A DNA stretch of 64,000 nt from contig NZ_HG322949.1 of assembly GCF_000723165.1 (NCBI RefSeq), forward strand, positions 226,771 through 290,770. The letters run 5' to 3'. Positions 4,776 to 62,704 of this stretch are shown in pieces. Below the pieces are notes generated by a model. It was not told where the DNA came from, made no database searches, and saw only the letters and a program-made list of their open reading frames with translations. Every line of letters starts with the position of its first letter. Position 1 is the first letter of the stretch. A program made the position numbers and the translations under genes. Source of the stretch: Janthinobacterium agaricidamnosum NBRC 102515 = DSM 9628. Lineage in GTDB: Bacteria; Pseudomonadota; Gammaproteobacteria; Burkholderiales; Burkholderiaceae_D.

Positions 4776-5123
4776 ATGTCGGTCTTTCAATATGTTGCGG
4801 TGATCGGCAATTGGCGGCCGCTGCCGAAGGCGCGCGAGCGGATCCGCACGATGGGTGCGGCCGTGTTGCCGGCAACGTCGCCGACGGTGACATTTGTTTG
4901 TGCGATGGCAATTGTGAGCCTGGGCTTCATGAATGGCAAAAAGAGCATTGCACATTTTCTTGAGTGGCGTCGTCCAATTGCAGCTTATTTTTCCGCGCCG
5001 GCAATTCACCGGCGTGCAACGCTCCCTGTGTGCCGGAGAAGGTCTTCATGTGGCAATGTTGTTTGCTCTGCAGCAATTGATCGCTTTCCATGGCGACGAT
5101 TTCCTTGACCTGCGCCGGCAGGA
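4776..5123. other. Intergenic region between NadM-Nudix and GGDEF genes
   Basis: A 348-base stretch between two divergent genes, so it must hold promoters for both. I see no convincing protein-coding frame. One small hairpin (CGCCGG, seven-base loop, CCGGCG; 4996-5014) lies in it. Nothing else recognised. Confidence 0.5.
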
Positions 5124-7478
5124 ATGAAACACTGCTGTCTATCTAACCATAAAAATCGCGCCATGGAGCAGGCACAACCCGACTTGAATTGGCAGGCGCC
5201 GGCGGAACCGGCGGATGAGCTGAAGCGTCTTGCCGCTTTGCACGCACTCCATTTCCTCGACGCGGCGTCGCAGCCGGAACTGGACCGTATCACGCGGCTG
5301 GCGGCGCGCCTGTTCGATGTGCCGATTGCGCTGGTGTCGCTGATCGACAAGGAACGCCAATGGTTTTTATCGCGGGTCGGACTGGGCACCAGCGAAACCG
5401 CGCGTAATATTTCTTTTTGTGGCCATGCAATTCTCGACGATGGGCCGATGGTGGTCGAAGACGCCTTGCTCGATGCGCGTTTCGCCGGCAATCCGCTGGT
5501 GACCGGCGAGCCGTATCTGCGGTTTTACGCGGGGCAGCCGATACGCAGCCGCCAGGGCCATGCACTGGGTACGCTGTGCCTGATCGACCGCCAGCCGCGC
5601 GGCATGTCGGCGCAGGATTTGCTGGCGCTGCGGGATTTTGCGGTGATGGTGGAACAGTATTTCCAGGCCAGCGAAGTCGACGCGCAAGTCAAGTCGGCGC
5701 AACTGCGCTACACGCGCTCGGAAGCGCTGCTCAATAATACCTTTGCGCAAGCCGCGGTCGGCATGGCGCTGCTATCGTTCGATGGCAAGTGGCTGCAAGT
5801 AAATCAGCGGCTGTGCGATATGCTCGGCTATCAGCGGGCGGCGCTGCTGAGTACCAGTTTCCAGGAAATCACCCATGCCGAGGACTTGGCGGGCGACCTG
5901 GCGCAAGTGGCGCAATTGCTGGCGGGACAGATCAGCACCTACACCATGGAAAAGCGCTACCTGCATGCGAACGGCAGCCATGTGTGGGCCGAATTGACGG
6001 TATCGCTGCTGCGCGACCATGCCGGCCATCCGCTGTATTTTTTATCGGTGATCAATGACATTGATGCCCGCAAGCATGCACAAATGGCGCTGGCCAGCTT
6101 GCACGGGGAATTGGAAAGCCGTGTCAAGATCCGCACCCATGAACTGGAAATGGCGCTGGCCCAGTTGCAACTGGCCAAGCAGGAAGCGGAAGCCAATGCC
6201 GAACGTTTTATCAGCGCCGCCGAATCGCACCTGGACGCCTACAGCCTGCTGCACAGTGTGCGCGATGACGACGGCAAGATCGTCGATTTCCGCTTCGAGT
6301 ATGTCAACCAGGTGGCGCAAGCCGTGCTGGGGCTGCCGCGCGAACAGATCATCGGCCGCCGGCTGTGCGAATTGCTGCCGCCACATGTCAGCGCCGGCAT
6401 GCTGGATAAATTCATCCGCACGGTCGACAGCGGCGAACCGCTGGCCGAACAATTCTGTCTCGACCTTGGCCATGGACCAGGGCAACTGCGCTGGATTTAT
6501 CACGAAGTGGTCAAGACCGGCGATGGCTTGAGCATCAGTTCCAGCGATATCAGCGAACGCATCCGCGCCGAAGAAAGTTTAAGGTTGAAGGAAGCGATGC
6601 TGCGTCAGGTCACCGATGCGATACCGGCGCTGGTGGCGTTTGTCGATGCCGGGCAATGCTACCGTTATTGCAACCGGGCTTATTACCTGTCGTTCGCCGC
6701 CGACGCCGCGCAGATCGTCGGCAGCACCATGCACGACTTCCTCGGTGAGGAGCAATACCAGTTTGTCCAGGAACACATCGAACGCGCCGTGCAGGGGATC
6801 TGCGCCGAATTCGATCAAAGCCGCTTGAAGGATGGCAAGTTGCGCCAGTTTGAAACCCATTATTTGCCGCAGCGTGAAGCGGAAGGGCAAGTCACCGGCT
6901 TTTATATCGTCGGCTGGGACGTCACCGAACAGCGCCTGCGCGAGGAAACCCTGCGCGACCGCGCCACGCTGGACCAGATGACGGGCTTGCTGAACCGTTC
7001 CGCCTTCATGGCGCTGCTGGAAGACCGGCTGCTGCGTTCGCCTTCCAGCAGCGACGGCGTGGCATTGCTCTTCCTCGATATCGACCACTTCAAGCAAGTC
7101 AACGACCGTTACGGCCATGCGGCCGGCGATGCGCTGATCAGGGAATTCGCCAGGCGCACCCGTGGCGCGGTGCGCGGCGCCGATATCGTGGCGCGCCTCG
7201 GCGGCGATGAATTTGTCGTGTTGCTGCCGCAAGTCGCGTCGCTGGAAGCGGCGGCGCTGGTGACGGAGAAAATCCGCGCCGCGATGCGCCAGCCGGTCAC
7301 GCTGCACGATAGCGACGGCATCGATTACCGGATTGCCAGCAGCATCGGCGTGGCCTACGCCGACGCCGCCGCGGCGCCGCGCTTCAGCGCCGCCGAGATG
7401 CTGGCGCGGGCCGACCAAGCGTTGTACCAGGCCAAGGCGGCGGGCCGCGATTGCTGGCGCAGCCAGGTGCTGAACTGA
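5124..7478 (+). CDS. GAF-PAS-PAS-PAS-GGDEF diguanylate cyclase
   Basis: A 784-residue soluble sensor that should make cyclic di-GMP. Order of domains: GAF (about 50-190, with ALVSLIDKERQWF and the typical FCGHAI), three PAS domains (about 200-325, 360-480 and 490-610, the first followed by a short coiled coil) and a C-terminal GGDEF domain (about 615-780). The active-site motif is GGDEF near residue 692, and RGAD five residues upstream matches the product-inhibition I-site (RxxD), so feedback control is expected. No transmembrane segment or EAL domain is seen. The start is unsure: the first ATG has AGGA very close, and an ATG 13 codons later (5163) has no clear ribosome site. Confidence 0.92.
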   Translation: MKHCCLSNHKNRAMEQAQPDLNWQAPAEPADELKRLAALHALHFLDAASQPELDRITRLAARLFDVPIALVSLIDKERQWFLSRVGLGTSETARNISFCGHAILDDGPMVVEDALLDARFAGNPLVTGEPYLRFYAGQPIRSRQGHALGTLCLIDRQPRGMSAQDLLALRDFAVMVEQYFQASEVDAQVKSAQLRYTRSEALLNNTFAQAAVGMALLSFDGKWLQVNQRLCDMLGYQRAALLSTSFQEITHAEDLAGDLAQVAQLLAGQISTYTMEKRYLHANGSHVWAELTVSLLRDHAGHPLYFLSVINDIDARKHAQMALASLHGELESRVKIRTHELEMALAQLQLAKQEAEANAERFISAAESHLDAYSLLHSVRDDDGKIVDFRFEYVNQVAQAVLGLPREQIIGRRLCELLPPHVSAGMLDKFIRTVDSGEPLAEQFCLDLGHGPGQLRWIYHEVVKTGDGLSISSSDISERIRAEESLRLKEAMLRQVTDAIPALVAFVDAGQCYRYCNRAYYLSFAADAAQIVGSTMHDFLGEEQYQFVQEHIERAVQGICAEFDQSRLKDGKLRQFETHYLPQREAEGQVTGFYIVGWDVTEQRLREETLRDRATLDQMTGLLNRSAFMALLEDRLLRSPSSSDGVALLFLDIDHFKQVNDRYGHAAGDALIREFARRTRGAVRGADIVARLGGDEFVVLLPQVASLEAAALVTEKIRAAMRQPVTLHDSDGIDYRIASSIGVAYADAAAAPRFSAAEMLARADQALYQAKAAGRDCWRSQVLN

Positions 7479-49832: not shown

Positions 49833-51211
49833 AGTACTTGTGGCCGCAATCGCTGTCGGGCCAGCTCGCCATCATCCTGGTGATCGGCATGTTGCTGGCG
49901 CAAATGTTGACCGGCACCATCTGGTACGACATGCGTTACGGCAAGGCGCTGGAAATGCCGACCCGGCTGGTGGCCGCCAAACTGGGTCATAGCTTGCGCA
50001 TCCTCGATGCGGCCGATGCGGGCGAACGCGATCAATTGATCGCTGCGCTGAGCAGCACCGATTTCCATTTGCAATTGCTGGCGATGCCGAGCACCGCCAT
50101 GCAATCGTCCGACCGCAGCGTGACGGCGCTGGCCCAGTTGCTGCAAGAAGTGCTGCAGCATGAAACCGGCAAACGATTGAATATCCGCATGCTCGACATC
50201 CACCTCGATGGCGACCATGAAGGCGAGGATGAATTGCTGACCTTGCTGCATACCGAATACCCATCCGGCCATTTCCGGCTGCAAGTGCAATTGCCCGATG
50301 GCGCCTGGCTGCAGGCGGACGCGCGCGAAGGGCAGGCCGGCATGAGCATGGCGCCGCTGAGCGCGCTGTTCGATTATTTGGGGCGCATCTATCTGCTGCG
50401 CATCGCCGCCATCATCGTCATCGCGCTGCTGGCGGTGCGGCTGGTGATGCGTCCGCTGAACCGGCTGGCGCGCGCGGCCGAGCGGCTGGGCGCCAATCTG
50501 CACAGCGAACCGCTGACCGAAAGCGGCCCGCTGGAAGTGCGCAAGGCGGCGCAGGCTTTCAACGCCATGCAGCGCAGGCTGATCGCCAACATCGCCGAAC
50601 GCACGCGTTTCCTGGCGGCGGTCTCGCACGATCTGCGCTCGCCGATCACGCGCATGAAATTGCGCACCGAAATGCTGCGCCAGCCCGAACAGCAAGAAAA
50701 ATTCCGCAAGGATCTCGATGAAATGGACGCCCTGATTTCCGCCACCTTGAACGTGGTGCAAGACATCGAGGTGCATGAAGAAAAGCAGTTGATCGACATC
50801 GACAGTTTGCTGCTGAGCCTGCAAACCGACTTCAGCGAAATCGGCGCCGAAATCACCGTGCACGGCAAGGCCGCGCCGCTGCCGGCCTATGGCCGCAGCC
50901 TGAAACGCTGCCTGCAAAACTTGCTCGACAACGCGGTGCGTTATGGCGAGCGGGCTGACGTCAGCGTGCAAGACGATGAGCGGCAATTGCGCATCACCAT
51001 CAGCGACCACGGCCCCGGCATACCGGAGGCCATGCTGGAGCAAGTGCTGGAACCGTTTTACCGCCTGGAACAATCGCGCAACAGCAGCACCGGCGGTTTC
51101 GGCCTGGGGCTGAGCATCGCGCAAACCATCGTGCTGGCGCATCACGGCAGTTTGAGCTTGCATAACCGCGAACAGGGCGGATTGGAAGCACGGATTATTT
51201 TGCTAAGATAA
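49829..51211 (+). CDS. EnvZ-like sensor histidine kinase
   Basis: A 460-residue membrane kinase. Two membrane helices (about 12-32 and 180-205) enclose a periplasmic sensor of about 150 residues without a recognised fold. It is followed by HAMP (RPLNRLARAAERLG), the H-box AAVSHDLRSPITRMKL (histidine near residue 267) and an ATPase domain (LQNLLDNAVRYGE, ISDHGPGIP, FYRLEQSRN, GGFGLGLSIAQ). EnvZ/CpxA-type architecture. Translationally coupled to the response regulator. An A+T-rich unrelated gene follows. Confidence 0.92.
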   Translation: MKYLWPQSLSGQLAIILVIGMLLAQMLTGTIWYDMRYGKALEMPTRLVAAKLGHSLRILDAADAGERDQLIAALSSTDFHLQLLAMPSTAMQSSDRSVTALAQLLQEVLQHETGKRLNIRMLDIHLDGDHEGEDELLTLLHTEYPSGHFRLQVQLPDGAWLQADAREGQAGMSMAPLSALFDYLGRIYLLRIAAIIVIALLAVRLVMRPLNRLARAAERLGANLHSEPLTESGPLEVRKAAQAFNAMQRRLIANIAERTRFLAAVSHDLRSPITRMKLRTEMLRQPEQQEKFRKDLDEMDALISATLNVVQDIEVHEEKQLIDIDSLLLSLQTDFSEIGAEITVHGKAAPLPAYGRSLKRCLQNLLDNAVRYGERADVSVQDDERQLRITISDHGPGIPEAMLEQVLEPFYRLEQSRNSSTGGFGLGLSIAQTIVLAHHGSLSLHNREQGGLEARIILLR

Positions 51212-51284
51212 GCAGATTCCGACTGACAGAAAAATTCCTTCTCTGTTATTTTGTGGAATTAAAATTGAATACGGGAGTTAATTT

Positions 51285-52298
51285 GTGGCCTCTGATTTGA
51301 GCGGAGAAGTAAGTAAGGAAAATAAATATTCCCACTCTTATAAGGAATTTTTTCCCGTATTAGGATTCATGATTTCTCATCCTTTCGAGATTTTTGCGTT
51401 ACTAGTCTCTGTCATAGGAATTTTAGGATATGCTGCGGGTGATTCATTTTATCAAGGTTGGAATTCGGTAGCGGGAATTTCATCATATACTTTTTCTATT
51501 GGTACATATGAGAAAATAGTAAAAGGTTTGACCCTTGTTTCTCCTTGGATTTATTGTATTGCCCTTTTAATTTTTGCTATTGTTTACGCATCAATGTTGG
51601 GGATATGGGATGAATGGCACACGCAAAGAAGTTCTTTAGTAAGAATTCGTAGACGCAGTTTTGAAAAGAAGAACGAAAGGCTGCTACGTTATAAAATTGC
51701 GAAGGCGGCTAAGGCTGAGAGGTGCACTTTTGGAATTCTTGCGAGAGATACAGGGCCTTTAAATTTAAAATGGAAAGAGCTTGGCCCAAGAGGTCGTTGG
51801 CGGATAAGATCTGAAATAAGATATGAAGAGAGGAAAAGAAAATTAATTCGATATGAGAAATATGGAGTTAAAGTTATTGGATTGATTTTTTATCTTGTTA
51901 TTGTTGGTGTGTTTTCACTATCTTATTTTGTTTTAAAAAATATGATTATCAAGCCGGCAAATAGAGATGGCACACTGGAATATATTGGAATTTATTTGGC
52001 GGTGACAGGAAAATTGCCAACGCAGTTAGTGAACAATAATATTGAGAAGAAGCGGATGGTGGAGCTTGCCTGCGACGGTTATCATGAATTGTGGAAATAT
52101 CGATTTTCCTCGATCAATGACGCTGAAGTTGATGGGGGATCTGGCAGTGGGAAATATATTTTACAAGGCGGAGATAAAATATTTTTCCTTTTAGGGAGTG
52201 AAGGTTCAAGTATCTATTCTTTTGGCAGTAAGAATTTTGTATTGAACGAGGCGTATCCAAGAAAGTATTCCGACTTGGTCAAGGATTGCAAAGATTGA
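51285..52298 (+). CDS. A+T-rich orphan membrane protein
   Basis: A 337-residue protein of unknown family. Three membrane helices: about 30-50 (IFALLVSVIGILGYAAG), 85-105 (PWIYCIALLIFAIVYASMLGI) and 195-215 (VIGLIFYLVIVGVFSLSYFVL). A highly basic segment lies between helices 2 and 3, and about 115 residues follow helix 3. Translation from GTG 51285 is supported by GGGAG seven bases upstream. Base use is far more A+T-rich than the neighbours, so it was probably acquired. It abuts a truncated gene on the other strand. Confidence 0.75.
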   Translation: MASDLSGEVSKENKYSHSYKEFFPVLGFMISHPFEIFALLVSVIGILGYAAGDSFYQGWNSVAGISSYTFSIGTYEKIVKGLTLVSPWIYCIALLIFAIVYASMLGIWDEWHTQRSSLVRIRRRSFEKKNERLLRYKIAKAAKAERCTFGILARDTGPLNLKWKELGPRGRWRIRSEIRYEERKRKLIRYEKYGVKVIGLIFYLVIVGVFSLSYFVLKNMIIKPANRDGTLEYIGIYLAVTGKLPTQLVNNNIEKKRMVELACDGYHELWKYRFSSINDAEVDGGSGSGKYILQGGDKIFFLLGSEGSSIYSFGSKNFVLNEAYPRKYSDLVKDCKD

Positions 52299-52319
52299 AC
52301 TTGCTATTGGCTCTTCATG

Positions 52320-52655
52320 TCATGCAGATCGATCTATTATGCGGCGCGGCCGTGCGGCGCCGCCACATCGCGGCTGGGCGGATTCCTGCAGCTCTTCGAG
52401 CGTGGTTTCGGTATCCTGGAAATTGGGGCCGGCAATCGCGGCGAGACGGGCCGCGCCGCCCTTGGCATTGTCGCTGGCGCGTTGAACCTGGCCAGCCAGA
52501 GGAAGCATGTCCGGCGCCAGGCGCGATTGCAGCAGCACGGATTGCGGAATATTTTTTTCGGCCGCGTAGGCCGCTACTTTGTCGAGGTAGTGCGACATGA
52601 TGCCCAGGCCGCGTATCAATACGGGAATGGAGGCATCGTACATGGAAAGGGACAT
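52320..52655 (-). pseudogene. DUF1993-family gene, 3' truncated
   Basis: Starts normally (AGGA, ATG 52655, MSLSMYDASIPVLIRGL) and follows the DUF1993 pattern (DKVAAYAAEKNI, LLQSRLAPDMLPLAGQVQRASDNAKGGAARLA, DTETTLEELQE). After about residue 93 the sequence turns into an unrelated Arg-rich tail and stops at 111, while the family is usually about 170 residues. The break is next to the A+T-rich orphan gene, so an insertion or deletion removed the 3' end. Function of the family is unknown. Confidence 0.75.
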
Positions 52656-52756
52656 GATCGTTCCTGTTAGCTTGCGTGTTTAAAGAGAGCCCGCACATGT
52701 GCGCAGGCGCTGCGGATAAGCGCCTGCGCCTTGCCGGCGCAGGCGCCCGGCCACAG

Positions 52757-53506
52757 TTAGACTTGGGCCATGCCGCCGTCGACTGGCAGGTCGATACCGG
52801 CGATGTAGGCGCTTTCATCCGATGCCAGGAACAGCGCGGCGGCAGCGATTTCGTGCGCTTCGCCCATGCGGCCCAGTGGAACCTGGGTAGCGAAGAACGC
52901 ACGCACCTGGTCGGCTCCTTCTTTGGTTTCAGCCTGGCTGTCGATCATCGGCGTATCGATTGGCCCCGGGCTCAAGGTGTTGACGCGGATGCCGCGTTCT
53001 TTCAGTTCCGCGGTCCAGGTGCGGACGAACGAACGTACTGCCGCCTTGGTGGCGCTGTAGGTGGCGTAGCCAGGGAAACCCTTGGTCGATGCGATCGACG
53101 ATACCAGGATGATAGCGCCGCCCTTGCCCATCAGCGGCAGCGCTTTTTGCACCGTGTAAAACAAGCCTTTGGCGTTGATGCCGAAGGTCTTGTCGTAGTG
53201 CGCTTCGTTGGCGTCATCGATGGGCGTCGGCTCCACGATGCCGGAGTTCGCCACGACGATGTCCAGCTTGCCTTTTTGGGATTTGACGGCGGCGTACAGG
53301 CGCTCCAGGTCTGCCATGCTGCTGACGTCGCCTTGCACGGCGCTGACGTTGCTGCCAATTAGCGCGACGGCCTTGTCCAGCTCGGACTGGCGGCGGCCGG
53401 TGATGAAGACGTATGCGCCTTCGTTGACGAAGCGTTGCGCCGTTGCCAGGCCAATGCCGCTGCTGCTGCCGGTGACGACTGCTACTTTACCTTTAAGATT
53501 GCTCAT
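52757..53506 (-). CDS. Short-chain dehydrogenase/reductase
   Basis: A 249-residue NAD(P)-dependent oxidoreductase of the classical SDR type: cofactor loop TGSSSGIG (12-19), NSG (87-89), catalytic serine near 136, Y150 and K154 (YSATK), and the C-terminal substrate loop. FPGYATYSATKAAVRSFVRTW and SPGPIDTPM are typical. It is divergent from a LysR gene that carries a frameshift, so the usual regulation may be lost. Substrate unknown. Confidence 0.93.
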   Translation of the reverse strand: MSNLKGKVAVVTGSSSGIGLATAQRFVNEGAYVFITGRRQSELDKAVALIGSNVSAVQGDVSSMADLERLYAAVKSQKGKLDIVVANSGIVEPTPIDDANEAHYDKTFGINAKGLFYTVQKALPLMGKGGAIILVSSIASTKGFPGYATYSATKAAVRSFVRTWTAELKERGIRVNTLSPGPIDTPMIDSQAETKEGADQVRAFFATQVPLGRMGEAHEIAAAALFLASDESAYIAGIDLPVDGGMAQV

Positions 53507-53682
53507 ATCGATACTCCAGTGATGGTCAGGTTAAAAAAGGCGTTTGTCGCGAGGGCTTCGTTTTCCCTTGCATCCAAGCTCCCCATGACCAAAGTATCGG
53601 GGCGAGGCCATCAACCGATAAGACCACGCAACCGTATAATGCCTATGCCTCGATAGCATGAATGTGATTTTAGGAGTGTCAA

Positions 53683-54625
53683 TTGGATCGTTTTCTACTA
53701 ATGCAGTGCTTCGTGCGCGCGGTTGAAACCGGCAGCTTTTCGGCCGTGGCGCGAGAGCTGGGGACTGGGCAGCCCAACGTGAGCCGGAACATCGCGGCGC
53801 TGGAACAGCATCTCGGTACGCGGCTGCTGCACCGTTCGACGCGCAAACTGACGATGACCCCTGAAGGCGAGCGCTACTATGCGGAGGTCAGGCGGGTCTT
53901 CGACGCGATCGCCGAGGCCGAATCCAATGCCAGGGGAGAGGATAAACCCAGCGGCTTGCTGAAGGTGAGTTGTCCGACTTCACTCGGCCGCACCCAGCTG
54001 CTGCCTTGGGTGGTGAAATTTCTCGAACAGTATCCGGACAATGGAAGTCGATGTCCAGATCAGCGACCGCTTCATCGATATGGTGGAAGAGGGCGTGGAC
54101 CTGGCAATCCGCATCGGCACCTTGGAGGACAGTACCCTGCGCGCCCGGCGCATCGGCGCATCGGAGCGCGTGTGTGTCGCCAGTGCCGGCTACCTGCAAA
54201 AAAAGCCGGCGCCCAAGGCGCCGGCAGACCTGGCGAACCATAACTGCATCGCCTATACCCTTTTTTTCGCAGGTACCTCCTGGCTCTTCAGCGATGGAGA
54301 GGCGGTCATCAGGGGAAGCATGAAGTCCAACACGCTCGATGGCGTCCATCAGGCCGTGATCGATGGACTGGGGATAGGGTATGGTCCTCTGTGGATGTTC
54401 GAGGATGCGGTGCGCAGCGGTGACGTGAAGCTGCTGCTCACCGACTTCAGCCCGAAGCCGGTGCCGATCCTGATCGTCTATTCTGCCAGCAGGCTGATGC
54501 CACGCAGGGCCAGCGCGTTCATGGATTTTTTTTCCGAGGCGTTCAAAAGCCAGCCATCCCTGAATGAGGGATCGCTGCGGAAACTGCTTGAAAGCCAGGG
54601 CGCATCCCTCAAGTTCACAGCGTGA
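53683..54625 (+). pseudogene. LysR-family regulator with a +1 frameshift
   Basis: A LysR regulator in two frames. The first part (TTG 53683, AGGAG upstream; MDRFLLMQCFVRAVETGSFS, HTH and linker) reads to FLEQYPD at 54039. The second part (MEVDVQISDRFIDMVEEG to the stop at 54625) continues the effector domain in the +1 frame. Removing one A at 54040/54041 restores an intact protein of about 313 residues. It is a recent mutation or a sequence error. It is divergent from the SDR gene, its likely target. Confidence 0.85.
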
Positions 54626-54647
54626 AAACGTGAGTCCGTTTACATCC

Positions 54648-55745
54648 TTACCACATGATCACGCGTTGCTCGGGCGGCAGATACATCGGATCGCCCGGCT
54701 TGATGTCGAACGCCTCATAGAAGCTAGGCTGGTTCATCACGGTGCCCTTGGCGCGGAATTCGCCCGGCGCATGCGGATCGCTCTTGATCTGTGCAATCGC
54801 CGCCTCAGGGCGCAATTTGGCGCGGCATTTCGTGGCAAAGCCGATGTACAGGCGCTGTTCGCCGGTCAGGCCGTCGAGCACGGGCGACGGCTTGCCTTGC
54901 AGCGAACGTTCATAGGCCTTGTAGGTGACCGACAAGCCCGAATTGTCGGCGATGTTTTCACCCAGCGTCAGCTCGCCATTGATGAAGTAGCCTGGCACGG
55001 GGCTGTAGGCGCCATATTGCCTGACCAAGCCTGCGGCACGCGCCTTGAAGGCGCTACTGTCTTGCGCGGTCCACCAGTTGCGCAGGCGGCCATGGGCATC
55101 GTACTGGCTGCCGGAGTCGTCGAAGGCGTGGCTGATCTCATGGCCGAAGGTAATGCCAAGCAGGCCGTAATTGACCGCATCTTCGGCTTTCACATTGAAG
55201 AATGGCGGCTGCAGGATCGCGGCCGGAATCGTGATTGAATTCAGTTCTGGGCTGTAGCTGGCGTTGACGGTTTGCGGCGTCATCCACCATTCGTCGCGGT
55301 CGACCGGTTTGCCGAGCTTGCCGAGATTTTGCTGGTGGCTCCAGGCGCGCGCCGCCCGCACGTTGGCGATCAGGTCATGCTTTTGCGTGTGCATGGCGCG
55401 GTAGTCGCGCCACTTGTCCGGATAGGCGATTTTGGGCTTTAATGCCGCCAGCTTGGCTTGGGCTTCCTTCTTGGTCTCCGGTCCCATCCAGTCGAGCTGG
55501 TCGATGCCGTCCTTGAACGAGGCCACGAAATTGTTAAACATGGCCATCACGCGCGGCTTGGTTTCGGGCGGCAGATACATCTCGACATACCGCTTGCCGA
55601 CTGCATCGCTCAGGGCGCCATTGGTAAAACGCAGCGCCAGTTGCCACAGCGGTTCACTTTGCGGGACGCCGCGCAGCACCGTGCCGTCGAAGGCGAAGCG
55701 TTCCTTGACGGCGGCGCTGTTCAGATAGGAAGCGTAGCTTTCTGT
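54648..55745 (-). pseudogene. M13 (neprilysin-like) metallopeptidase, N-terminal half missing
   Basis: The C-terminal half of a secreted M13 endopeptidase (PepO-like): zinc motif GHEISHAF, the third ligand region GENIADNSGL, NAYYSP-like NASYSPELNSITIPAAILQPP, and the C-terminal YLPPEQRVIMW. Homologous coding continues upstream of the first ATG (ESYASYLNSAAVKERF) to an in-frame stop at 55746-55748, where the family sequence ends. About 320 N-terminal residues with the signal peptide are missing, so it should be inactive. The break marks the left edge of the inserted cassette. Confidence 0.85.
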
Positions 55746-55748
55746 TTA

Positions 55749-56203
55749 GTAATTTAAAAAAAGACAGACCCCGACTTTCCTACCCCTGCTCCGCGCAGCT
55801 TGGAAATTTTGGGTTTCATCACTTGCAGTTTCCTCATCCCTCTCATCGTTGAGGGTGCAGGTCTCCGCAACGGCTGTGAGCCATTTTTGGGTGTCGATGG
55901 CACGCATTTTACGCTTGTTCAGAGGCTTGACAAAACTTTGAACCGCCGGATACTATGAGTTATAGGCGCGCCCCCCGAGAAATGGAGGGTATTGGGACTC
56001 GACAGAAATGAACGAGAAGATGCCTGATGGTATATCCTACCCAGGAAGAACCATCGCGCGAACGGAAGGCACGCGTTTGTCGCTATCGATAAGTGCTTTA
56101 GTCTTGGGTACCTACCTCATGTAGGATACGCAGCAGAATTCGGTACGGCTCGGAGATATCCGAGCCGTTACTCCATCTGGACCACGAAACTCTAAGGATG
56201 CGA
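55749..56203 (+). other. Leader region of the LOTUS/PRTase cassette
   Basis: A 455-base non-coding stretch. On its left, reading outward from the broken peptidase gene, is GTCGGGGTCTGTC followed by a T-run, a motif I associate loosely with mobile-element ends. A good sigma-70 promoter follows: TTGACA (55927-55932), 18 bases, TACTAT (55951-55956). The roughly 240-base leader contains a perfect nine-base hairpin (CGGCTCGGA, loop GATA, TCCGAGCCG; 56146-56167) just before the first gene. Confidence 0.55.
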
Positions 56204-57148
56204 ATGTCAGAGCAATCAATAGTCACTGTTCCAGCTGCAAAATTCGAATTTCTGTCCATTGTGGATCTACCAGCGTTAAAAGCTCATCTCAAACAAACAC
56301 TCACTGGCCCGACAATTTTAGGTAGTCAGCTTGGGGAATTGCTGCTGAGAGCATCACCAGTAATCGAGCGTCAAATAGTTGTGCGTCAATTCGGTGGCCT
56401 TAGAAAATTCGCTAGAGACCATTTGAGCGATATGGTCGTGCTCAAAGCCCAGCATGCTGTTGGTCAGGCAGAGATATATGAAGTGTTGGTAGGTTCTTCC
56501 GAACTAGGCGAGCCTGCTAGCGCTCGTGAGCCGTTGAGCTTTACACCTCGAAATGCTAGATTTTTTTGGTATGCTATCAGTAATCCCCTTTCTAGGTATG
56601 CTACTGCAATAGTTGCAAACAAGCTTGTATGCCACGTTAAAAACGAACCAGTCGATGGCGCTGTAAGCTTCCTCCCTTTTTCTCTTGAAAATTACCGCGA
56701 GGTCGCTCGAGAATTCGTGGCTTCGCTTCCTTCGCCTGTGAACAACATGGCTGAAACTCTCCTGACTGAGACTAAGCCTGAGGAATTACACCGAAAATTG
56801 ATCCCATTCCTCCGCACTGAGTGTGGAGGGGCAGAAGTACAACGGTGGGATGGCATACGTCGCTCGGAAATCTTGAAGAAGTTCGTTGAGCAGGCCCTAG
56901 CGCACGGCCTAGACGCAATAGAGGTCGAGGATTATAGACTGATGCTTTCCAAAGTGAATTCTAAGCCGGAGGCGCTCACTGTCATCAAAAACGAGACCAA
57001 GCTAGTGGATCAAAAGAAATCAGAGGGGTTAACGAATATACAATTTATAGCCATAGATGTAATACGGCGTATGAGTGATGAGCAGATAAGGGCGCTGGAT
57101 CTTCCATTTGGTCTTGTTTTAGATGCTGCGACAACTAAGCTTACCTGA
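56204..57148 (+). CDS. Protein with LOTUS/OST-HTH-like N-terminal domain
   Basis: A 314-residue A+T-rich gene product without a family I can name firmly. Residues about 35-98 (LGSQLGELLLRASPVIERQ, FGGLRKFARDHLSDMVVL, IYEVLVG) fit the LOTUS/OST-HTH pattern, an RNA-binding winged helix. The middle has FFWYAISNPLSRYATAIVA; the C-terminal half is helical (LRTECGG, RSEILKKFVEQALAHGLDAI). I chose ATG 56204 because AAGGA is five bases upstream; ATG 56198 is too close to it. It is followed after 26 bases by a PRTase-like gene, with which it forms a two-gene unit. Confidence 0.7.
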   Translation: MSEQSIVTVPAAKFEFLSIVDLPALKAHLKQTLTGPTILGSQLGELLLRASPVIERQIVVRQFGGLRKFARDHLSDMVVLKAQHAVGQAEIYEVLVGSSELGEPASAREPLSFTPRNARFFWYAISNPLSRYATAIVANKLVCHVKNEPVDGAVSFLPFSLENYREVAREFVASLPSPVNNMAETLLTETKPEELHRKLIPFLRTECGGAEVQRWDGIRRSEILKKFVEQALAHGLDAIEVEDYRLMLSKVNSKPEALTVIKNETKLVDQKKSEGLTNIQFIAIDVIRRMSDEQIRALDLPFGLVLDAATTKLT

Positions 57149-57174
57149 GCGTTGCTTTTAGAGCACAATGATTT

Positions 57175-58494
57175 ATGGCCAAATTACTTGTTGTATGTTC
57201 TGATATGGAAATGGCGCGGGTTGTCGATGCGCTCCGATATTCAGTGAGATCAGATCAGCGGCAGGACGTTATCGTCTGGGAACTACGTGACGGCTGCAAA
57301 TTAGTGGACGGGAATCAGCAAACAGTCTTTTGGACAGATATTCCCGCCGACATACATGTTTTGGTGACGAAGTCTGTAAAAGGCTTTCCGCGAGACATAC
57401 TTATTGATGCTGGGTACTCTATCAAAGTTGTATCGCGAGAGGGCTTTTTTCAGGAGGGAAATTCTAAACTTGAGCGCTTCTTGGAGACTCTTGGGATGTG
57501 CTGGACGGATCAAGCGCGGGATGCCTATGAGTCTTACGATCACCGTTCTCCAGATTTTGATGTGGCTAGTTGGTTAAAGCAATTTGACGCCATTGGAGCA
57601 CCAAGCTTAGGTAAGGCACTGCTTCGACACTTAGAGGTTCTACCAACAGATCAATGCGTGTCGATCCTCGCTAAGAGTTATTTAGCTCATAGTGGTGTAC
57701 CGGCAGATTTTGTTGCTACGTTGTCCAAAATGGGAAAAAGTGGAGCTGCCTTATCTGGCGGGTTGAGACGTCATTTAGAACGGGATCCTATAATTCTAAC
57801 TGACGCAATTGAAAAAAATGCCACTTCTCAAGAAAGAAAATGTATTCATGTTTTTGAGGATGGGCTTTGGACCGGTATAGAACTATCACGTGTACTTGAG
57901 TCTTTAATTGGAAAATCGACAAAGCCAAAATTGCCCGCTTTATCAGATCCTACGCTGTTGCATAAATATAATGTGGTTCTTCATTTTGCATTGGCTACTG
58001 ATATCGGTATCTACGCTGCTAAGTCACTTTTATTAGAATGGGATTTGAAAAATTTCTCACTTGCTACTTCAAATTCAAAGATGATTGAAGTACTAACTGC
58101 TGAGGCGAAATCAAACTTTGAGAATGGAAATTTCTCTTTTAAACACGTAAGGGATTTCGCCTCAGAGGTTTCAATCACTCCAAGAATTATTACCTTACTG
58201 AGTGTAGAAATGAGCGATGCCGCAATAACCCATGTAATGGGGGTGATTAGGACAGTTGGATCTCAACTCTGGGCGATTAACAATAAAGCATTGTCAGATT
58301 CAGCAATTCCTCTAAACGTAGAGTTCGGTGCGAATGGAATCGGGTCAACAACCCTCTTCCGACATAGTTCTCCGAGAGCAGTCCTCCCCATGTTTTGGGC
58401 AAGTGGCCCTATAAAGTGGGGCTCCAAGCGCATTCACTGGAAAGCGCTGTTTCCTGAAAATGGTCCCAAGGATCATATACTTGCTACTTCTTAA
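57175..58494 (+). CDS. Phosphoribosyltransferase-like protein (PRTase-CE-like)
   Basis: A 439-residue A+T-rich gene product. The N-terminal ~110 residues form an alpha/beta segment starting MAKLLVVCSDME. From about residue 130 it resembles PRTase-like proteins of conflict systems: WLKQFD (133-138), MGKSGAAL (186-193) and HVFEDGLWTGIEL (225-237), which looks like the PRPP-binding loop (hydrophobic strand, acidic pair, TG). The C-terminal ~190 residues are unassigned. Ribosome site weak; likely coupled to the gene before. A bidirectional terminator follows. Similarity judged by eye from memory of the families. Confidence 0.65.
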   Translation: MAKLLVVCSDMEMARVVDALRYSVRSDQRQDVIVWELRDGCKLVDGNQQTVFWTDIPADIHVLVTKSVKGFPRDILIDAGYSIKVVSREGFFQEGNSKLERFLETLGMCWTDQARDAYESYDHRSPDFDVASWLKQFDAIGAPSLGKALLRHLEVLPTDQCVSILAKSYLAHSGVPADFVATLSKMGKSGAALSGGLRRHLERDPIILTDAIEKNATSQERKCIHVFEDGLWTGIELSRVLESLIGKSTKPKLPALSDPTLLHKYNVVLHFALATDIGIYAAKSLLLEWDLKNFSLATSNSKMIEVLTAEAKSNFENGNFSFKHVRDFASEVSITPRIITLLSVEMSDAAITHVMGVIRTVGSQLWAINNKALSDSAIPLNVEFGANGIGSTTLFRHSSPRAVLPMFWASGPIKWGSKRIHWKALFPENGPKDHILATS

Positions 58495-58617
58495 ATTCTT
58501 GGCAGTCAGAAATTATCAATGCGATAGTTATTTTTTAAGCTTGCGCATTTCACTCAACCGCAGATATACGTTTTATCTATTCTTGTCAGAGTGGCCCAGT
58601 TTGGTTACGTATGAAGT

Positions 58618-58648
58618 AAAAACGCCCGCAGCAATGCGGGCGTTTATT
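58618..58648. terminator. Bidirectional intrinsic terminator
   Basis: AACGCCCGCA (58621-58630), loop GCAA, TGCGGGCGTT (58635-58644): a perfect 10-base stem with As before and TTTATTT after, effective in both directions. It closes the cassette transcript and can also stop transcription from gyrB. The rest of 58495-58923 holds the palindrome below and no supported gene. Confidence 0.85.
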
Positions 58649-58750
58649 TGGAGTATTTTCCAACTCTGAAAAACTAATTTCCTATCCAATCTAGCAACTA
58701 TAGGAAAGCTAAGTAAGCCGTAATAAATTCTTGTGATTTCTGACTTCCAT

Positions 58751-58829
58751 AACCGGCGCTCTGCGGTGTTGCTCGCCGCTAGCAGTGCTCGCACTGCGTC
58801 GCAACGAGCGCCTTGCAGCGCATCCGGTT
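58751..58829. repeat. Long imperfect palindrome downstream of gyrB
   Basis: A 79-base imperfect palindrome centred near 58790: outer arms AACCGG (58751-58756) and CCGGTT (58824-58829), inner perfect arms GCAGTGC (58782-58788) and GCACTGC (58791-58797). G+C-rich in an otherwise A+T-richer gap. Could be a REP/BIME-like element or the hairpin end of a mobile element. Confidence 0.6.
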
Positions 58830-58923
58830 CTGTTCGCCATAACTTCACAATCATTTTCCACGACCTACTTAGTAAATGTTTTTAGTCGTAGAACAGTGGG
58901 ACTCCACGGTAAAGTAATTGAAA

Positions 58924-61597
<2,674 letters not shown>

Positions 61598-62704
61598 TTA
61601 AATCCGCATCGGCATGACAACGTACTTGAAGTCGGCGTTGTCAGGGATGGAAATCAAGGCCGACGAATTCGAGTCGCCCAGTGCGATGTTGACTTGCTCG
61701 CATTTCAGGTTGTTCAGCACGTCCAGCAGGTAGGTGACGTTGAAGCCGATGTCGACGGAATCGCCGCCGTAGTCGATTTCCAGCTCTTCGACCGCTTCTT
61801 CCTGGTCGGCGTTGGTCGAGCTGATTTTCATGCTGCCCGGGGTGATGATGCAGCGCACGCCCTTGAACTTGTCGCTGGTCATGATGGCGGCGCGTTGCAG
61901 CGAACGCAGCAATTCATCGCGACCGATGGTGAAGTCGTTTTTGTAGCCCTTCGGAATCACCCGGGTGTAGTCGGGGAATTTGCCTTCGACCAGTTTCGAG
62001 ATCAGTTCGATGTCGGCGAAGGTCAGCTTGACCTGGTTGGCGGCGATGTCCAGTTGCACCGGCTCGTCGTTTTCTTCCAGCAGGCGCTGCAATTCGATGA
62101 TGGTCTTGCGCGGGATGATGACTTCCTGGCGCTCGAAGGTTTGTTCGGTCGCGACCTGGCAAAACGCCAGGCGGTGGCCGTCGGTTGCCACGGCGATCAC
62201 GTTGTTGCCGTCCAGGACCAGCAGCAAACCGTTCAGGTAATAACGGATGTCTTGCTGCGCCATCGAGAAATGCACCATGTTGAACAGGTGCTTCAGGGTT
62301 TTTTGGGGCAGCGTGACGGACGCGTTGTAGCTTTCGGCTTGCTGCACGGTCGGGAATTCTTCGGCCGCCAGGGTTTGCAGGGCGAAGCGCGACTTGCCGG
62401 TTTGTACCGTCAGGCGCTTGTTCAGCAAGGTCATCGTGACGTCGCCCGATTCAGGCAGCGCGCGCAGGATGTCGAGCAGCTTGCGCGCGGCCACGGTGGT
62501 GCCGGTGACGTCGGCGCCCGAGCCGATTTCGGCGTGGGTGGTGATTTGCACTTCGGTGTCGGTCGACAGGAAGGACACATGTTCGCCGTCTTTGCGGATG
62601 AGGATATTGGCCAGAATCGGCATAGTGTGCCGACGCTCGACAATACCGCTCACGATCTGCAGTGGCCGGAGAAGGGTATCTCGGGTGGTTTTGACCAATT
62701 GCAT
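61598..62704 (-). CDS. dnaN: DNA polymerase III beta sliding clamp
   Basis: A 368-residue processivity clamp. It begins MQLVKTTRDTLLRPLQIVSGIVERRHTMPILANIL and ends in DNADFKYVVMPMRI, as in beta clamps. Three clamp domains of about 120 residues are expected from the length. It lies between dnaA and gyrB on the same strand, the classical gene order. The 199-base gap to dnaA shows no convincing DnaA-box cluster by eye. Confidence 0.98.
   Translation of the reverse strand: MQLVKTTRDTLLRPLQIVSGIVERRHTMPILANILIRKDGEHVSFLSTDTEVQITTHAEIGSGADVTGTTVAARKLLDILRALPESGDVTMTLLNKRLTVQTGKSRFALQTLAAEEFPTVQQAESYNASVTLPQKTLKHLFNMVHFSMAQQDIRYYLNGLLLVLDGNNVIAVATDGHRLAFCQVATEQTFERQEVIIPRKTIIELQRLLEENDEPVQLDIAANQVKLTFADIELISKLVEGKFPDYTRVIPKGYKNDFTIGRDELLRSLQRAAIMTSDKFKGVRCIITPGSMKISSTNADQEEAVEELEIDYGGDSVDIGFNVTYLLDVLNNLKCEQVNIALGDSNSSALISIPDNADFKYVVMPMRI

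Follow-up and report, generated by a model that had tools for sequence, protein, structure and literature searches.

Phosphoribosyltransferases (PRTases) have been described in association with DprA as well as with type III retrons (passages of PMC12548924). The two-gene DprA-PRTase system, likened to shosTA, is reported to be antiphage in the passages of PMC9122126, which call the mode of action of PRTases in retrons unknown. Type III toxin-antitoxin (TA) systems have the layout of an RNA antitoxin (excerpts of PMC5086642), and in AbiF/RCd22 the RNA starts 168 nt before the effector ATG and has a promoter and a terminator (excerpts of PMC12373285). Here we describe a cassette from Janthinobacterium agaricidamnosum NBRC 102515 = DSM 9628, lying in a stretch of 64,000 nt (NZ_HG322949.1, 226,771-290,770, forward strand; "the window", to which coordinates refer), which encodes a LOTUS/OST-HTH-like protein (gene 1) and a PRTase (gene 2). 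It is best read as a variant of PRTase-effector systems that is neither a retron nor a classic type III TA system, and it is probably an antiphage or TA-like module whose effector is the PRTase. Searches of the open-licence literature of PMC, a scope outside which most subscription journals lie, found no paper on PRTase-CE, or on LOTUS/OST-HTH in phage defence, which agrees with an earlier note on this DNA that knew of no described system with exactly this pair. A PRTase appears in a figure legend of PMC13092281, and a related pair may be among the systems of that paper, seen here in excerpt; the passages of PMC7159879 mention no PRTase.

Judged by sequence, gene 2 is a PRTase-CE enzyme related to the effectors of type III retrons.

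57175..58494, + strand: gene 2, PRTase-CE effector of 439 aa (Pfam profile, PADLOC, profile comparison)
57175..57504, + strand: residues 1-110 of gene 2, an alpha/beta domain at the N terminus that was not observed in the retron PRTases
57844..57885, + strand: PRPP-binding-like loop HVFEDGLWTGIEL, residues 224-237 (residue conservation; presumed motif)

It scores 40.7 bits against PRTase-CE (PF24390), above the Pfam gathering cut-off of 27, the PADLOC model PRTase_III-A matches 12/12 members of its family, and profile comparison relates it to type III retron PRTase effectors (E 1.6e-11). The earlier note had taken it for a PRTase-CE-like protein, which is borne out, and the relationship to retron effectors can now be added. 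We take residues 224-237 to be a loop of the kind that binds phosphoribosyl pyrophosphate (PRPP): E228, D229, G230, L231 and E236 are invariant in all 12 sequences of the family alignment (A6), and D229 and E236 are kept in 12/12 of a wider alignment (A8). E228/D229 and a T/S-G loop are common to most PRTase members, the exceptions being G047 (S-A) and G1322 (GD for ED). The protein would presumably carry out PRTase chemistry on a PRPP-linked substrate. It had no match at E<=1 among the sequences of solved structures and none in PHROGs; beyond this PRTase assignment, neither gene had another significant match, and no ToxN-like endoribonuclease was found.

Other PRTase-CE genes were also observed. 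A second one in the same genome (G000:C1:30072-30962; L062 4986-5981, minus strand; 161 bits) lies beside transposase-looking open reading frames (ORFs), with no ORF resembling a reverse transcriptase (RT) or a LOTUS protein seen adjoining it. In L057, L058, L060, L063 and L071, such a gene precedes one for a 622-682-aa protein (three begin alike, ...NPF...), and no RT was recognised by eye; this is perhaps another type of PRTase system. In another family-member genome, a 654-aa protein (L100 5992-7956, minus strand) consists of a long N-terminal region of no known kind and a PRTase-CE-like end.

No match to the RT model RVT_1 at E<=0.001 occurs in the complete host genome, a single contig of 5.95 Mb, and because this model detects 4/4 type III retron RTs tested, the cassette is not a retron in its own host; retron identity was rejected for want of the RT, the PRTase effector being present. 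A decayed retron, with its RT lost or supplied in trans, would account for the relatedness of the PRTase to retron effectors, and of five member genomes in which RVT_1 was sought, three do have matches (one in G047, two in G1322, one in G1473), all of them distant from the cassette or located on a different contig. G1401, like the host, has none at the same threshold, and no RT was seen in the annotation and ORF lists of L005 and L087, the only data inspected there. Both genes are moreover open in all six loci where they are paired, and gene 1 gives no alignment to retron PRTase proteins (probability 0.1). We regard decay as very improbable in general, and as largely refuted for the host genome.

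56204..57148, + strand: gene 1, LOTUS/OST-HTH-like protein of 314 aa (predicted fold, family searches)
56255..56494, + strand: predicted LOTUS-like winged helix, residues 18-97 (structure prediction)
57020..57139, + strand: conserved C-terminal tail, residues 273-312, ...MS-EQ-R-L-LP-G--LDA (proposed effector-binding element)

The LOTUS/OST-HTH assignment of gene 1, also made in the earlier note, survives in part. When the predicted N-terminal fold is compared with known ones, the LOTUS domains of TDRD7 and TDRD5 rank first, although with modest Z, but the OST-HTH profile matches 0/17 family members at E<=1, and a LOTUS-like winged helix is the best-ranked fold for this model rather than a secure one. 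Sequence profiles gave gene 1 no family match; its best hit among solved-structure sequences was a ribosomal protein (E 1.7), and its best in PHROGs had E 0.054. Its Pfam matches include no DprA, and the cassette was accordingly rejected as a DprA-PRTase system. In L098, the LOTUS-like part together with the conserved C-terminal tail accounts for the whole 140-aa partner. Animal LOTUS/OST-HTH domains bind RNA, and gene 1 may likewise bind RNA or another nucleic acid.

The pair is conserved. Readable DNA was available for seven loci: the window, the B. glumae plasmid bglu_2p (L005; B. glumae records were counted once), an Acidobacteriaceae metagenome-assembled genome (L087), and genomes G047 (L076), G1473 (L098), G1322 (L101) and G1401 (L099). 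The LOTUS-like gene lies directly upstream of the PRTase gene in six of the seven. Two weak matches, L100 and L102, were left out of this count: they matched the PRTase end only, their ORFs score 38 and 21 bits against A6, and they have neither the family N-terminal domain nor a LOTUS partner. L101 was kept, though the PRTase end alone matched (ORF 46 bits), as it has the N-terminal domain and a neighbour matching the partner profile at 65 bits. This choice was not blind to pairing; the count free of it, with the weak matches included, is 6/9. Protein searches point the same way, indirectly, with 7/10 PRTase matches (the window's own included) having a partner match from a longest contig of the same size. 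The co-occurrence that the earlier note had proposed as a check is therefore found in most loci, but not in L099, where a PRTase of the same type (4977-6389, minus strand) stands without the LOTUS partner; upstream of it come some 350 nt in which no long ORF occurs, and a small ORF that is receiver-like.

The PRTase family is rare. A search in the host's taxonomic family matched 7/392 genomes, including the window's own and two weak ones; a genome search found the host and G047 among 198 relatives, and the host alone both among 369 genomes of its class and among 200 of its order. The closest relatives are metagenome proteins. Viral contigs and phage records held no relative, and plasmid records gave B. 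glumae alone (32 or 33 records), with nothing for the L101 PRTase or the window's leader. Two scans of genome contigs gave, respectively, none and one Acidobacteriaceae locus.

55927..55956, + strand: sigma-70-like promoter (TTGACA, TACTAT), 10/12 matches, placed by consensus alone
55957..56168, + strand: non-coding leader, putative non-coding RNA gene, predicted +1 near 55962 (same layout in 6/6 paired loci)
56145..56168, + strand: G+C-rich hairpin closing the leader, 35 nt before the gene 1 start, without a U-run in the window copy (-21.6 kcal/mol; 1/60 shuffles as strong; absent from the terminator scan list)

All six paired loci share this layout. From a -10-like site picked by eye, the leaders measure 174-324 nt up to the hairpin and 194-350 nt with it, and the hairpin ends 14-35 nt before gene 1. 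At most 2/60 shuffles match the hairpin in five of the six loci (22/60 in L101). As a control, 8/45 ORFs (of 47 eligible, with starts set mechanically) reach <=1/40 shuffles, and from this we estimate by hand odds of about 1 in 1000 for the six-locus hairpins, a figure for which the thresholds differ slightly and the starts in the six loci were hand-checked. By eye, a U-run follows the hairpin in four loci (L005, L076, L087, L101) and in neither the window nor L098; termination is a prediction. Promoter and terminator scans covered the window, L005, L076 and L087, with L098 and L101 left out; a plus-strand promoter-like match was found in the window alone, and the hairpin was listed in L005 and L087 and not in the window or L076.

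Because this anatomy is that of AbiF/RCd22 and type III TA systems, the leader is most naturally read as a small RNA gene, plausible though not proven, and it would then exist as a free RNA. Folding z values with the hairpin are -3.4 (window), -0.9 (L005), -2.1 (L076), -3.7 (L087), -1.7 (L098) and -1.8 (L101); without it they are -1.1, +0.8, -0.25, -1.8, -1.1 and -1.0 in the same order, weak and not clearly beyond shuffles, so the leader body is not clearly structured. Nor do the six leaders share a common motif above shuffles. Direct repeats of at least 11 nt are absent from five of the six leaders, the window's included, and L098 has one 11-nt pair. A classic type III TA system was rejected, the window leader having no tandem-repeat RNA and the cassette no ToxN-like endoribonuclease. 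The leaders of the window, L005, L076 and L087 reach no Rfam gathering score. Across window positions 50000-62000, Rfam gave three matches at E<=1, all below gathering scores; they lie outside the leader and both genes, none is a retron family, and one (58618-58732, minus strand) overlaps the operon terminator hairpin. The leader has one copy in its genome (other matches are 15-22 nt, E above 4). Its small ORF, of 38 aa, is equalled in length by 12.5% of shuffles, and no locus stands out in this respect.

The main rival is a protein-only pair, type II-like, in which the LOTUS-like protein would bind DNA through its winged helix and serve as antitoxin and autorepressor of the PRTase, and the leader would be a long 5' untranslated region with an attenuator or operator hairpin. 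We consider this unlikely, if a serious contender: a leader of 194-350 nt with a terminal hairpin in 6/6 loci exceeds what an operator needs, and LOTUS entries rank first, slightly, in the fold comparison.

We favour, at a little under even confidence, a three-part antiphage module, of abortive-infection or TA type, in which leader RNA and LOTUS protein restrain the PRTase and phage attack releases it. The single promoter would yield a short leader RNA in excess, since transcription should mostly end at the hairpin that precedes gene 1, and read-through would yield small amounts of LOTUS protein and PRTase. The ligand of the LOTUS-like domain would be a nucleic acid, with the leader RNA as the likeliest candidate, and the PRTase would be kept inactive by the conserved C-terminal tail. 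Phage disturbance of transcription, of the RNA or of the complex might then release the PRTase, which could act on a PRPP-linked nucleotide or RNA substrate and stop growth or replication. More tentatively still, we suggest an RT-less, RNA-based immune module, in which a PRTase effector of retron type is gated jointly by a bacterial LOTUS-domain protein and a leader RNA that ends by termination. The earlier note had instead proposed sensing of foreign RNA; in such a reading the LOTUS protein would recognise phage RNA, or RNA-DNA structures, and turn the PRTase on. Known defence genes nearby suit such a direct sensor, as does the link of animal LOTUS/OST-HTH domains to RNA control (a Vasa-helicase regulator, in literature excerpts), but it leaves the hairpin-ended leader of all six paired loci unexplained. 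It is rather improbable; the anatomy better fits an RNA that the cassette makes itself and that holds the effector inactive.

The cassette adjoins the 3' end of gyrB (window 58924), where similarity to five genus relatives, drawn from 20 relatives with a gyrB match, stops. In four of the five, PADLOC recognised genes adjoining gyrB: MzaABC, type I restriction-modification with SoFic, PDC-S06 and a type IV-like restriction gene (nine proteins were scanned, chosen for a defence-like look; the fifth relative, L114, looked metabolic and was left out). This gyrB flank (window and L113-L117) is thus an apparent defence hotspot. The B. glumae copy lies between a Lamassu LmuB gene, with two transposase genes intervening, and PDC-S11 and Avs2. 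The Acidobacteriaceae copy sits between two tRNA matches (1387-1459 and 5245-5317; 60.8 and 44.7 bits) and may be an integrated element; the one neighbour tested there, and three ORFs near L099 and L101, had no PADLOC match. The placement in variable or defence islands expected by the earlier note is hence seen at two of seven loci, and supports a defence role.

58620..58645, + strand: intrinsic terminator-like hairpin of the operon (-26.9 kcal/mol for 58600-58670; missing from the terminator scan list)

The two plus-strand ORFs (56204-57148 and 57175-58494; an alternative gene 1 start at 56198 would add two residues) sit between a truncated M13 peptidase ORF and gyrB. Their G+C content at third codon positions (GC3) is only 0.43 and 0.38, whereas five flanking genes have 0.77-0.85, and by base use the cassette looks horizontally acquired. 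The ORFs, GC3, promoter scan and folding confirm the A+T-rich, two-gene cassette with its own promoter-like site and terminator-like hairpin that had been described beforehand, as well as its insertion between a broken peptidase gene and gyrB. Elsewhere in the window, a 337-aa ORF (51285-52298, + strand; 37% GC, GC3 0.32) with apparent membrane segments is another likely foreign gene; it belongs to no family, its best match being DUF3169 with E 0.005, which falls short of the cut-off.

If the proposed module is real, a cassette without reverse transcription separates the roles of effector and gate from those of RT and DNA product, making PRTase effector chemistry and gating directly testable. 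It would suggest that PRTase effectors are interchangeable parts for different nucleic-acid sensors (RT with DNA product, DprA, LOTUS with RNA). An RT-less RNA-based module would supply the link that is missing between retrons and RNA-antitoxin systems, and bacterial antiphage immunity would gain a LOTUS-like module of the sort studied in RNA control in animal germ lines.

Compared with the LOTUS/OST-HTH proteins Oskar, TDRD5/7 and MARF1, gene 1 resembles them in a predicted winged helix that ranks the LOTUS domains of TDRD7 and TDRD5 first, but it is bacterial, has one copy of the domain and a family-specific tail, and lacks a sequence-level match. Type III retrons (III-A, with a PRTase/winged-helix effector) share with the cassette a related PRTase effector, an accessory protein of predicted winged-helix type and a putative RNA region; in the cassette, however, both genes lie downstream of the RNA region, no RT was found there or in its genome, and the PRTase has an extra N-terminal domain and lacks the C-terminal extension seen in the retron PRTases used for comparison. 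The DprA-PRTase system, as far as the passages of PMC9122126 describe it, likewise pairs a nucleic-acid-binding protein with a PRTase effector, whereas the cassette has a LOTUS-like protein in place of DprA, together with its leader layout (the leader being uncompared for DprA-PRTase). Its promoter-like site, putative short RNA, terminator-like hairpin and protein gene come in the order that type III TA systems and AbiF/RCd22 have in excerpts of PMC5086642 and PMC12373285. Its leaders differ in having no direct repeats, bar the 11-nt pair in L098, and the cassette carries a PRTase in place of the endoribonuclease or Abi_2 and adds a LOTUS-like protein.
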